Positions 1-64,000 of a stretch of 64,000 nucleotides of DNA are shown here, piece by piece. Position 1 is the first letter of the stretch; every line of letters starts with the position of its first letter. Below the pieces are notes generated by a model. That model was not told where the DNA came from. It saw nothing but the letters and a program-made list of their open reading frames with translations, and did no database searches. The DNA is from Symbiodinium natans. Lineage: Eukaryota; Sar; Dinophyceae; Suessiales; Symbiodiniaceae. The position numbers were made by a program, and so were the translations under genes. The stretch spans positions 124,001-188,000 of the forward strand of contig CAJNDS010002213.1 of NCBI GenBank assembly GCA_905221605.1. The letters run 5' to 3'.

Positions 1-94
1 TGCTGTCGAAGCCCTCAAAAGTCCAAACTAGGCCCCAGAGTCAAACGGTTTAGGGTTCAGGGTTGAGGGTTCAGGGTTTAGGGTTTGCGCTTAC

Positions 95-136
95 AAGAGT
101 GAGTAGTTGCGCAGCTGAGCCAAAGGACTTCGCCAT
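95..136 (-). CDS. Possible first exon of a gene leaving the window
   Basis: Reads ATG followed by 13 sense codons (MAKSFGSAAQLLTL) and then GTAAGC, a good 5' splice site. The gene would continue left of base 1. There is no family match and the exon is only 42 nt, so chance is a real alternative. Confidence 0.25.
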
Positions 137-730
137 CCCTCGCTAGTCACCCACCAAGCCCCAAACCAACTGAAACACCAAACCCACAGTACACCAAACC
201 CTCAAACCCGCACAGCCCCCAAAAACCCTACACTCCGAACTCTGCGACGGGCTGTCATTTCTTCCACATCCCTCTCCACTTCAACCCTCGGAGGCCCCTA
301 AACCCCAAACCCCAGAATGCCCAAAGCCCAATCCACCTAAAACGCCCAAACGCCCAAAAAACGCCCAAAAGCCCAAACGCCCAAAGCCCTAAACCCCCCA
401 TAGCCCAACATCCGAACCCGAAGCCCGAATCTGAGAGTGCCACCAGAAGCCCAGAAGGGAGAGCGCCGAAGCCCAGAGCACCAGACTCCTTGAAGCTTCG
501 TGGGTAGTATAGGGTTTAGGGTTTAGGGTTTTGGGGTTTAGTAGGCTTTCGGGCGCAGGATGCAGGGTCATGATGAGAGAGATGATGGCAGTCGGAGACT
601 TACTTAGCAGCTCCCGGAGGGCTTGAAACCAAGCCGTTCAGGGTTTAGGGCTTCGGGTTTAGGATTTCGGGGCTATCGTCTTACAGTCGTACAGTGGATC
701 GACTGGTCTTGCGCTCCCACATCGGGGTAT

Positions 731-802
731 TCATCTTGACCCACATGTAGTTGTTTCTTCCGTGAAGTAAAGGGTGATGGCTAGCACTATGACCACAAAG
801 AT
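731..802 (-). CDS. Possible terminal exon with one membrane helix
   Basis: After a TACCTGCAG acceptor the frame reads a hydrophobic stretch (IFVVIVLAITLYF), a short polar tail (TEETTTCGSR) and TGA. This would suit the C-terminal anchor of a membrane protein. No family is recognised and upstream exons are not resolved. Confidence 0.25.
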   Translation of the reverse strand: MFVVIVLAITLYFTEETTTCGSR

Positions 803-1460
803 CTGCAGGTACCTCAAACACAACGAACTAGAAATGTGGGGAGGGGTCTGGGGAGGGCGTTGACCGGTTTGAGCGGCTCCGCTCGAACCGTAAACCCTAA
901 GAAAAAACTCTGCAGGCAGCGGGGCACCTTTTGAAACTGCGGGGTACTGCGTCACGCAAAGTCTTTCTAACAAGGACTTTTTGGTGACCCAACCCCTAAA
1001 CTAAGGACCCACGAGTCGAGTCATGTGGCATCTGAGATTCGTTGGGTCCATATGCGCGTCACCAAATGGTCCTTATGACGTTCGTCTGCCTGAGGTATGC
1101 CGATCTCGGGCACTGAGTTGCACGAGTTTCTCTTTGTACTTAGCAGCCAGGATGCCTGGACCCAAACCCAAGGCCCGAAACCTAAATCGCCCCTGGACGC
1201 TAAACGCGCTCAGCGCAAACCGTCGCAGCATCCTGGCCGTGGCAACTCGCCGGAAATGTCCAAACTCTCGCTACACCTGCATCATCTTCCTATTTAGACC
1301 CAAACCCACCTGGGCGCGCCACATGAGGGTCCCTACAATTCTGTGTGTTGAAAGCATTGTGGCTGGAAGATGTCAGGTAGCTGTGTCATGCTGTGTCAGG
1401 ATCTCTTGTTGCACGTTGTTTCTGCTGCGGGCGAGCACCGCAGGGGGTGAGATGCCGGGC

Positions 1461-4400
1461 TCAGGAGGATGGCTTCTTCCCGCCGCACTTGAAGCACTCA
1501 TCCCTGCGAGCAAAGTTGTTGCAGCCGCACTTCTCGCACTCCCAATCCTGAGTGTCACGGGCGAGCTACGGGGAAGCTGGGAGGTCCTGTGAGGCTGGAA
1601 GCTACCACTCATGATGCTCGCGGCTCCAAGCAGCAGATTCTTGCCTGTCACAGGTCCATCCACAACCCAGGCCATCAAGAATCTGCCAGTTCCACATTAC
1701 TCCACTTAGTCCATCCACTCCAGTATTTCCTGCCCATCGTGGCTTACGACTGCGTGCATCCAACACCTTCCGGCACCAGCCAAAAACCCCACCATGCCAC
1801 ACCATGCGATTCCACACATGCCATACCACCACATCCACACATGCCACTCCACAAGACCTCCAAAACAAGGGGGAAAAGAGGAGTAGGACAAACTTCTTGA
1901 GTCTCCAAGTCTAGAGAGTCTGAAATCACAGGACCTGAGGGTCAAGAAGGAGTGAGGGTGCAAGATGCCATGCCACTCATGCTATGCCACTCAGTCATTC
2001 TGACTCTGCCTTTTTTAGGGTTCAGAGGGGGTGATTCTCTCCAAGTCTGCGCCAAAAACACGAAGGCCCGCTGCCCAAAGCCACCACCTCCCACCAGTGG
2101 CCACAAGATTGGTCAAGGCACTCCACCCCAGTTGCCGCTGGGCCTGCGAAGGGCGCGGGCGAAGGCTTTCTTGTCCCAGTGCCGAGGGGGATTCTTGCAG
2201 AAGAAGCCCTACAAAAGGGGTCGGATTGACTGCTGATAGTATTCCCGTCTCGTCCCTTTATAGTCATACTATGTCATACTATACTGACCACCAAAACCCT
2301 ATTCTAATTTTTAAGCCCCCTCAACCCTAAACCCTGAAACCGTGGGGTCTTCGGAAACCATTCCGAGACTCGGCCCGCTATGTCAAACCCTAGAGAACCA
2401 AAGGCATGCGTCCTATATCCTAGCAGCTCTCAAGAAACTGGCCGAACCACTCCCTGCCATGACAGGCTCCGACTTCTGTTTCCGAATTTTATTGGGGAGG
2501 CTTGGGGGGAGGGGGGGTGGGGTAGGAGGGTTTAGGAGGTGCAGGGTCTAGGGTTTAGGAGGTTTAGGGAGCTTGGGAGGCTCAGAAAGTCCACGAGGTT
2601 TAGGGTTTACGGGGCTTCAGGGGTCAGGTTCTAGGGCTTTCCTGCTGAAGTTTGCGAGTTTATTGCTCAGAGTTCAGGGTGTAAGGGCCCGTTGCGGGAA
2701 ATATCCCCTCAACTTCCCCTGCAATTTCTACGTAAACCTGGAGGCTGTTCTCCTGGGCTCCTCCATCCACACACATGAAGTCCCTCCACGCATGAAGCCC
2801 CTAACCTCTAAGATTCCTACCGCCCCGCACGCATTTTAGGGTTTAAGGTTTAATTAGGGTTTAGGGTTTAAGGTTTAGGGTTTGGGGTTTCGGGTTTGGG
2901 GTTTGGGGTTTGGGGTTTAGGGTTGCCCTGAGCACTGGACTACCATCCCAGAAGCTCATTCATCCATCACCTTGGCCCCCCCTGTAATATAGGGGCCTTA
3001 ACAGTTAGAACAGGGTTTTGGGAGTGTATTATAGCATAATTATAAATCTAAGAATCCGTTTATATTACGGGGTATAGGTTTGTGGTATGGTGAGTTATTC
3101 TTAGAATAAAGGGACCATAAGGGAATACTATGAGTAAATTATTCCGACCCCTGTAGTAGTTTCATGACAGGGTTGCGGGCTTCGCAGGGTTTGCGCGCTT
3201 TGGGCTCAAGAGTTCGTGAGGCTTCCCGAAGACTTCACGCCGCGGGAACAGGGACGACGGGAGCACCAGCCAGGGTGCTTTCCCAGAAAACCTTGAAACA
3301 CAGCCACGCATAAACACTAAACCCTGAAGCCTAAACCCGAAATCATGAACCTTGGGCTCAACTCTCCCCCAAACCCCAAACCCCAAACCCTAAACCCTAA
3401 AACCCAGCATTCCGACCTTCCACCCGGTCCGAAGGCTCGCCGAGGGCTGCGGTCCCTGTCGTAGCGCGAACCACCTGCGCCGTTCGGGTTTAGGGTTAGG
3501 GTTTAGGGTTTAGGGTTAAGGGTTTAGGGTTTAGAGTTTAGGGTTTAGGGTTTAGGGTTTAGGGTTCTTTGAGGGTTATCAGGTGTGGAGTTGAGGGCTT
3601 TGGACTTAGGTCTTAAGGTTTGGGTTTTTTAGAGTCTCGGAGTTGAGGCTATTGGCACATTGGGTTTCAAGGTTGTAGAGGGTTCAGGGTTTAGGGTTTA
3701 GGGTTTAGGGTTTAGGGCTAGTTAATCAGGGTTCAGGGTTTGGGACATGAGCAGGGCTTTGAGGAGATTACCTTTTCCATGAAAGCCCTGAAATTCCTGC
3801 GCGTGTCGTATTGCTCTTGGCGTGGCCGCTTAGGACACGGAGCGGCGAATTTTGGTGCTACCCAACAATGAGTTCTTGATAAGGACATGAGATTAAGTTA
3901 CCAGGATAGGGGCGCGACATTATTACACCCCAAACCCTAAACCCTAAACCCTAAACCCTAAACCCTAACCCCTAAACCCTAAACCCTAAGCGGGTAGCTT
4001 CACCTGCATCACGAGGGCCCTACACCCGAAAGGAGCCCCTAAACTTCAGGGCCTACCACCCGAAACCCCTAGCCATCGACCGGGTGGTTCAGGGGGTACT
4101 TATAAGTAGGGTTAGAAGTACCCTAAATAAGGCGATATCTTCGACATATAGTTGCTATGGGTATAACCCTACGTATGAAATACCTAAACCCTAAACCCTA
4201 AACCCTAAACCCTAAACCCTACACCCTACACCCTACACCCTACACCCTAAACCCTAAACCCTAAACCCTAAACCCTAAACCCTAAACCCTAAATCCGAAA
4301 CCTTCTGAACCTCCATCTACTGCAATCTAGCCGCGGTCATCGCGACGATCACTTCGTCGGTCCCGGCTGTCACGTCCACGGGACCTACCGCTGAGGGCTC

Positions 4401-63321: not shown

Positions 63322-63420
63322 CTACCCCCTTTTCGGGTTTGGGGCTTCAGGGGTTTTTTGCACGTGGGATGTAGGCTCATGATCGTTCGGAGTTGTTCTG
63401 TTTTTTGGGGTCACTGGGGC
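63322..63420 (-). CDS. Terminal exon of a minus-strand gene
   Basis: A good acceptor (GAATCCCCGCAG) is followed by APVTPKNRTTPNDHEPTSHV, then QKTPEAPNPKRG and TAG. It is Pro/Thr-rich and hydrophilic. The next gene start (62972) lies about 350 bp downstream on the same strand. Family unknown. Confidence 0.45.
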   Translation of the reverse strand, partial: APVTPKNRTTPNDHEPTSHVQKTPEAPNPKRG

Positions 63421-63449
63421 CTGCGGGGATTCGAGTAGGATCGGGGTAG

Positions 63450-63568
63450 GTACATGGTCCCTCAGTATGGGCCTTAAGGGGACCCCTCATATATATTTCT
63501 CAGAAACCCTGTACAACCCAAGGGCCCATACTTCAGAACCCTTGAAAGGAGGTAAGGCCCATATAGCT
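63450..63568. mobile_element. MITE-like element, GGGCCCATA family
   Basis: Shares ACAACCCAAGGGCCCATACT and GGTAAGGNCCATAT-type sequence with 45322-45457. Confidence 0.45.
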
Positions 63569-63626
63569 ACCCTTTGAGTAGGATCTAGGGTTCAGTGTTA
63601 AGGCTTGAAAAGCTATTTCTGAGTGA

Positions 63627-63720
63627 GGGGACGTCTTCGTCAACGACTTTGGGCCTGGGTCTAGCCTCTTGCTTCAAAACGGGCTTCTCCGGGTATTCAA
63701 GGAGGGCGATTCATGTTCAG
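63627..63720 (+). CDS. Exon-like island at right end
   Basis: Plus frame DVFVNDFGPGSSLLLQNGLL then RVFKEGDS has high G/C third positions. A longer frame (63595-63879) overlaps it but is less biased. No family recognised. The remaining 63880-64000 holds nothing I can support. Confidence 0.35.
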
Positions 63721-64000
63721 GGCAATTACACGGCTTGCGAAGTTTCGGTTCCCGACCGTCATGGTGCTCTCAAGAACCCGAGTGGGTATTTTTTCCACAG
63801 AAGCTTCAGTAGGGTTTATATAGGGTTTAGAGTTTTCGAGGCACCCCCAATCAGAGGCGCTAAGCCTGTGAGCCTTTAACCCTCAGCCCGTTGTCAAGTC
63901 AAGACCGATGCATCGCGCGTCTGCAGTGCAGACACGAAAAACCCCCAAAGGAAGCTACCTTCTAAGAGGGCTATAAAGGACAGAATGTGATATCTTGGTG

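Follow-up and report, generated by a model that had tools for sequence, protein, structure and literature searches.

The results obtained for a 64-kb stretch of the Symbiodinium natans genome (contig CAJNDS010002213.1, positions 124,001 to 188,000; ~51% G+C), hereafter called the window, reveal that telomere-type repeat arrays are placed around verified exons with a preferred polarity. In the sense direction, an exon tends to be preceded by a CCCTAAA (C-type) array and followed by a TTTAGGG (G-type) array; seen from the intron, G-type repeats lie towards the donor and C-type repeats towards the acceptor. At the verified exons this rule of orientation is a genuine tendency, and the polarity is probably a trace of intron origin rather than the splice signal itself. 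Arrays were defined as exact any-phase matches to the TTTAGGG-type heptamer in both orientations; G-type matches account for 8.9% and C-type matches for 9.8% of the bases in the window.

Exons were verified independently of the arrays, by paralog conservation or by a spliced Pfam match, and all of them lie on the minus strand (Table 1). Self-comparison revealed two tandem paralogous genes, A and B, at about 1.4–8.1 and 9.1–17.1 kb, in which eight internal exons of 26–77 nt are kept in order in both copies (16 exons), with lengths equal modulo 3 in 8/8 pairs and a shared reading frame open across all eight exons in each copy, copy A being open in a second frame too. The product is an RS/RGG-rich protein, to which the last exon adds a RanBP2-type zinc finger recognized by Pfam in the spliced product of copy A, last exon included. 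The A and B introns have the G[T/C/A]...AG ends of spliceosomal introns, and their removal keeps the reading frame: acceptors are AG in 16/16, and donors as placed comprise 8 GT, 6 GC, and 2 GA, the exon ends having been set by hand to preserve frame and homology, and individual donors may be off. The second source of verified exons is a methyltransferase gene, four exons of which match Methyltransf_11 at 1.8e-16 when spliced and at 0.001 when searched singly; the product also matches a solved methyltransferase structure at 2.9e-5.

In the 120-nt flanks of the 16 paralog exons, the acceptor flank is C-type in 14 and the donor flank G-type in 12; both flanks agree with the rule in 11, and none of the 16 exons is reversed. 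When the exon map was rotated over 9,086 offsets, exons with both expected flanks numbered 2.4 on average and 9 at maximum, and random non-array placements gave at most 9 in 20,000 trials. The bias that the earlier note on this DNA expected for genes on both strands is found at these verified exons, all of them on the minus strand. An array of the type predicted by the rule is present in 14/16 cases at either end, the closest one lying 3–130 nt (median 36) from the donor and 11–80 nt (median 29) from the acceptor. The donors of A3 and A7 are without heptamers, A7 having 76 G there, and in both copies the 130-nt acceptor flank of the last exon is free of exact arrays.

The layout had been described in that note from 15 named islands, and it holds on both sides for 13 of them and on one side for the other two: C-type exceeds G-type in the left 120 bp of 14 (55589–55629 has no exact heptamers there), and G-type exceeds C-type in the right 120 bp of 14 (41034–41136 has C 31 and G 21). 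The two named exceptions were confirmed as well, 29768–29805 being reversed on both sides and 37130–37216 reversed on its left side and free of arrays on its right; those at the methyltransferase gene arise partly because short introns put one array within 120 nt of both exons.

The same polarity is evident within 17 introns (14 paralog and 3 methyltransferase), where 763 of 883 G-type bases fall in the 5' half (120 in the 3' half) and 570 of 710 C-type bases in the 3' half (140 in the 5' half). The order of G-type 5' and C-type 3' is followed by 15/16 informative introns (p 5e-4), and random intervals of the same lengths give P values of 9e-4 by count and 5e-5 by sum. The two paralogs do not count as independent samples; with the copies summed, 7/7 intron positions are positive, and all three methyltransferase introns agree too. 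Among ordered block pairs in 18 introns, one with an unverified junction, G precedes C in 24 and C precedes G in 2. The array content itself is variable, both types being present in 9 of the 17 introns, G-type only in 3, C-type only in 3, and neither in 2. With the repeats masked, C is not in excess at the acceptor ends (180, as against 171 G), and at the donor ends G outnumbers C by 277 to 166, a 76-base poly-G tract (A7) being counted in; the masked intron ends mostly lose their asymmetry, which therefore resides in the repeats. Poly-C tracts of the plus strand (sense poly-G) at 4818–4893, 13133–13152, and 37650–37676 occupy the 5' portions of introns A7-8, B7-8, and one methyltransferase intron, all verified.

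The polarity is mostly retained in both paralogs despite diverged flanks: the exons are 79% identical on average, whereas the 120-nt flanks do not resemble each other more than non-homologous flanks do (identity 0.65 vs 0.60 ± 0.07, and 0.62 vs 0.59 ± 0.09). Persistence of the arrays may reflect either selection or upkeep by slippage while the unique sequence decays. The 3' ends of the paralogs (1443–2154 vs 9081–9757) are ~85% identical over 700 bp, beyond the recognised exons too, and the introns elsewhere no longer align between the copies; recent gene conversion of these 3' ends is possible.

Over the whole window, the 196 telomere-type blocks obtained after cutting (101 C-type and 95 G-type) alternate above chance, with 120 orientation switches between adjacent blocks against a shuffled mean of 98. 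The gaps from C-type to G-type (n = 60) have a median of 113 bp, 33 of them measuring 80–120 bp, whereas those from G-type to C-type (n = 60) have a median of 190 bp with 8 in that range. Neighbours 40–130 bp apart are C-to-G in 39 cases and G-to-C in 13; orientation shuffles gave a mean C-to-G count of 18.8 and attained 39 in 0/10,000. C-to-G exceeded G-to-C under all 12 block definitions (binomial p 1.4e-6 to 0.027; 1.1e-5 to 0.096 in the region outside the paralogs at 1–17.6 kb), and this gap asymmetry is independent of strand. Below 40 bp, G-to-C gaps account for 9/60 and C-to-G gaps for 1/60, some G-to-C junctions abutting or nearly abutting with short filler. Head-to-head meetings of G-type and C-type repeats with 0 to 5 bases between them, at 5813, 13864–13868, and 42292, resemble telomere fusion points.

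The explanation that we place first, and hold tentatively, is that the introns were made or enlarged by inserted DNA with facing telomere-type heptamer ends. The left end of such an insert would consist of TTTAGGG runs and its right end of CCCTAAA runs; splicing would excise the insert plus spacers of tens of bases outside the arrays, and an exon would come to lie with the C-rich right end of one insert before it and the G-rich left end of the following insert after it, in a layout equal to the capping of a linear chromosome (5'-CCCTAAA ... TTTAGGG-3'). The layout equals its reverse complement, so that a strand-blind process at the DNA level suffices; such an origin is favoured because exon-bearing segments end in repeats ordered as in native telomeres, irrespective of the transcribed strand. 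The insert ends may derive from telomeric repeat addition at broken, rejoined ends or from mobile elements with telomere-like terminal inverted repeats. It is unlikely, in our estimate, that telomeric repeat addition at breaks inside genes drives intron birth as such, a rejoined cap-filler-cap insert becoming the intron; if it does, exons would stand as telomere-capped segments.

Several observations weigh against an origin from inserts. The gaps from G-type to C-type are long for the most part, and blocks ordered as GCCC or GGGGC depart from the simple G-C pairs of single events. No target-site duplication was found beyond the splice consensus (boundary direct repeats 3.0 vs 3.1 in mismatched introns), and self-comparison of the 64-kb window showed no family of related inserts. 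The distance of tens of bases from array to splice site at both intron ends also fits selection for splicing. Most C-to-G islands outside the verified genes are candidate exons. Outside the training genes, codon and splice scores predicted 34 exons on the minus strand, and these are unbiased in orientation (left C>G 14 and G>C 12, right G>C 13 and C>G 11, with a weak predictor); by the codon score, C-to-G islands and other gaps could not be told apart (p 0.74). Neither comparison has power, the verified exons also scoring poorly by the codon score. Period-3 is raised in C-to-G islands only (60–130 bp, 1.27 vs 1.02 ± 0.09 in shuffles, p 0.004); outside 1–17.6 kb it is 1.20 (p 0.056) for islands of 60–130 bp and 1.22 (p 0.018) for those of 60–200 bp, which speaks for a coding role of part of the C-to-G islands outside the paralogs.

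Selection for splicing is the main rival to the insert origin, because the arrays lie near both intron ends and G-rich RNA close to donors matters elsewhere. In this scaffold without pairing, which we regard as possible yet doubtful, G-rich repeats would be kept near the donor and C-rich ones near the acceptor, the two ends acting independently; G-runs or RNA G-quadruplexes would help to define the weak GT/GC/GA donors, and the C-rich arrays would give pyrimidines and a branch-like CTAAA. The flank counts at donors and acceptors, the polarity kept in both paralogs while their flanks diverged to the non-homologous level (exons 0.79 identical), and the sense poly-G in the 5' parts of three introns are all consistent with it, as is the reported abundance of G-quadruplexes near the 5' splice sites of mammalian introns (PMC5778605). 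Against it, 8/17 introns are without one or both array types, the last exon of both copies is without an exact array in its 130-nt acceptor flank, little asymmetry remains once the repeats are masked, and the role is predicted from sequence alone. Of the earlier suggestion of a splice-site scaffold, the polarity at verified exons is upheld, whereas the mechanism finds little support. The arrays are neither splice sites nor required: introns were said to tend to open with GTTTAGGG as a ready GT donor, and only 1/16 donors is array-like, reading GTCTAGGG, so the identity of array and splice site is rejected.

The same note had suggested that the opposed terminal arrays of an intron could pair with each other; a model in which such pairing draws the splice sites together appears improbable. 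Pairing was examined in 17 introns (14 A/B and 3 from the methyltransferase region; one with an unverified junction, one with a donor later moved). The longest inverted repeat at the intron ends within 120 nt averages 12.3 as against 6.7 in shuffles, minimum-energy folds pair the ends of introns A4-5, A8-9, and B4-5, and inverted repeats are reported at both ends of introns in Amoebophrya and Prorocentrum (PMC7789003 and PMC10666404). However, the value is 10.7 between different introns (with no significance test) and 12.7 across an exon; within 60 nt the three values are 8.1, 7.8, and 8.7 for one intron, between introns, and across an exon; and the folds pair across exons A2, A8, B3, and B9 alike. 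Pairing specific to intron ends is therefore unsupported, the ends pairing equally well across an exon. Moreover, the partner array is absent in 8/17 introns, and pairing leaves the order of the arrays unset, yet G is first in 15/16. Exon-centred hairpins, in which the flanking arrays would pair across the exon, loop it out, and favour skipping or circular RNA, accord with the tight C-to-G spacing (33/60 at 80–120 bp) and with the strong folds across 4/16 exons; this is an isolated prediction, and the G of an intron is transcribed before its C, by which an intron pair would presumably form first; we consider the hairpins very unlikely. If the repeats had simply expanded and come into this order by accident, the rule would be a by-product of the choice of islands. 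Such a reading would suit the lack of bias at the 34 predicted exons and the non-independence of A and B; it is countered by the orientation shuffles, rotations, random intervals, and threshold tests, and we give it little credence.

Table 1. Exons and arrays in the window; positions are those of the plus strand.
Feature	Position	Strand	Evidence or remark
Last exon, copy A (RanBP2-type zinc finger + stop)	1461..1547	-	PF00641 1.9e-7, spliced product
Exon A9 (RS/RGG-rich protein)	3417..3474	-	Conserved in B9; C-array left, G-array right
C-type array	4165..4293	+	Left of exon A8; sense G-type, 5' part of intron A8-9
Exon A8	4332..4384	-	Conserved in B8
G-type array	4413..4464	+	Right of exon A8; sense C-type, 3' end of intron A7-8
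Exon A7	4905..4943	-	Paralog conservation; poly-G (sense) replaces heptamers at donor flank
Exon A6	5349..5387	-	Paralog conservation
Exon A5	5896..5921	-	Paralog conservation
Exon A4	6046..6077	-	Paralog conservation; exception: acceptor without array, donor C-type
Exon A3	6311..6369	-	Paralog conservation; donor without array
Exon A2	6894..6930	-	Paralog conservation
Last exon, copy B (RanBP2-type zinc finger + stop)	9098..9181	-	Conserved with copy A; PF00641 0.0017
Exon B9	11443..11500	-	Paralog conservation
Exon B8	12522..12583	-	Paralog conservation
Exon B7	13301..13333	-	Paralog conservation
Exon B6	13779..13817	-	Paralog conservation; exception: donor C-type
Exon B5	14407..14432	-	Paralog conservation
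Exon B4	14801..14835	-	Paralog conservation; exception: acceptor G-type
Exon B3	15279..15355	-	Paralog conservation; sole array-like donor, GTCTAGGG
Exon B2	16009..16042	-	Paralog conservation
Methyltransferase exon (named exception 37130-37216)	37141..37216	-	Spliced Methyltransf_11 1.8e-16
C-type array	37497..37628	+	Within verified methyltransferase intron; sense G-type
Methyltransferase exon	37838..37931	-	Pfam, spliced product
Methyltransferase exon, donor position uncertain	38143..38191	-	Pfam, spliced product
Methyltransferase exon	38480..38524	-	Pfam, spliced product
Candidate exon, DUF2256-like CxxC motif	55589..55629	-	PF10013 0.001, 19.6 bits, under cut-off 25; weak

Pfam scans covered three frames of the minus strand at 17–47 and 47–62 kb and of the plus strand at 17–62 kb, and one minus frame at 1–15 and 44–59 kb. 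Minus-strand long open frames with a short island (50617–51591, 50233–50317, and 49429–50022) presumably resemble one dinoflagellate membrane protein family; 50617–51591 matched no Pfam family, and 49429–50022 a sub-threshold family only. No Rfam families at the gathering score and no tRNAs were found. Dispersed non-telomeric repeats that are 76–89% identical (16321–16430/55161–55270, 45890–45997/62759–62872, 45324–45441/63452–63564, and 4728–4785/49310–49369) are perhaps transposon remnants, and a 31-bp minisatellite at 24617–24802 has an inverted copy nearby (25106–25170). Matches to a relict spliced-leader motif stayed at chance level, with 4 at up to 3 mismatches vs 3.0 expected. An origin from prokaryotes, phages, or plasmids was rejected: a 101-bp query had no match in plasmids, nor did the array-island-array pattern in viral or genome contigs; a four-unit array matched 9 viral contigs, each carrying 3 to 21 heptamers, and these matches were counted and then disregarded.

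How new introns arise is still unsettled, and few lineages gain them as fast as dinoflagellates; if telomere-type polarity at intron ends proved to be fixed, the birth of introns would be tied to telomere addition or to elements whose ends resemble telomeres. No description of telomere-type arrays at intron ends was found among the open-licence PMC papers listed in the searches made. The window has the TTTAGGG-type repeats and the GC/GA donors of a dinoflagellate nuclear genome, such non-canonical donors being usual in dinoflagellates (PMC11453091). Its clustering of genes on the minus strand also points to a dinoflagellate. Introner elements of the dinoflagellates Amoebophrya (PMC7789003) and Prorocentrum cordatum (PMC10666404) likewise carry inverted repeats at both intron ends, but the repeats found here are longer telomere-type arrays, common to different introns and lying tens of bases inside. 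An inverted repeat of 8–20 nt within 30 bases of the intron ends, as in those introners, was present in 0/17 introns (the longest averaging 4.4 vs 4.3 in shuffles), and the published introner definition was rejected for these introns. Direct repeats of 3–5 nt at the exon-intron boundaries, the other introner feature, reach at least 3 nt in 12/17 with the means given above; because they equal those of mismatched introns, the splice consensus would explain them.

Introners have also been described as DNA transposons, many families having terminal inverted repeats (PMC9860276). Both cases would concern introns made by insertion, whereas self-comparison of the present 64 kb, one window and not a genome, showed shared arrays, few dispersed repeats, and no shared or related insert bodies. 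Low-complexity families were filtered out of that survey, and telomere-type arrays are the kind of repeat that introner surveys discard as such; a telomere-array type could therefore have been missed. Interstitial telomeric sequences, for which an origin by insertion at break repair has been proposed (PMC7215372), are alike in being short telomere-type tracts inside chromosomes, although the available text does not connect them with intron ends in a fixed polarity, unlike those observed here. Finally, the G-runs and G-quadruplexes described close to 5' splice sites (PMC5778605) share with the present introns a G-rich RNA just inside the donor, which is here of telomere type and accompanied by a C-rich counterpart at the acceptor.

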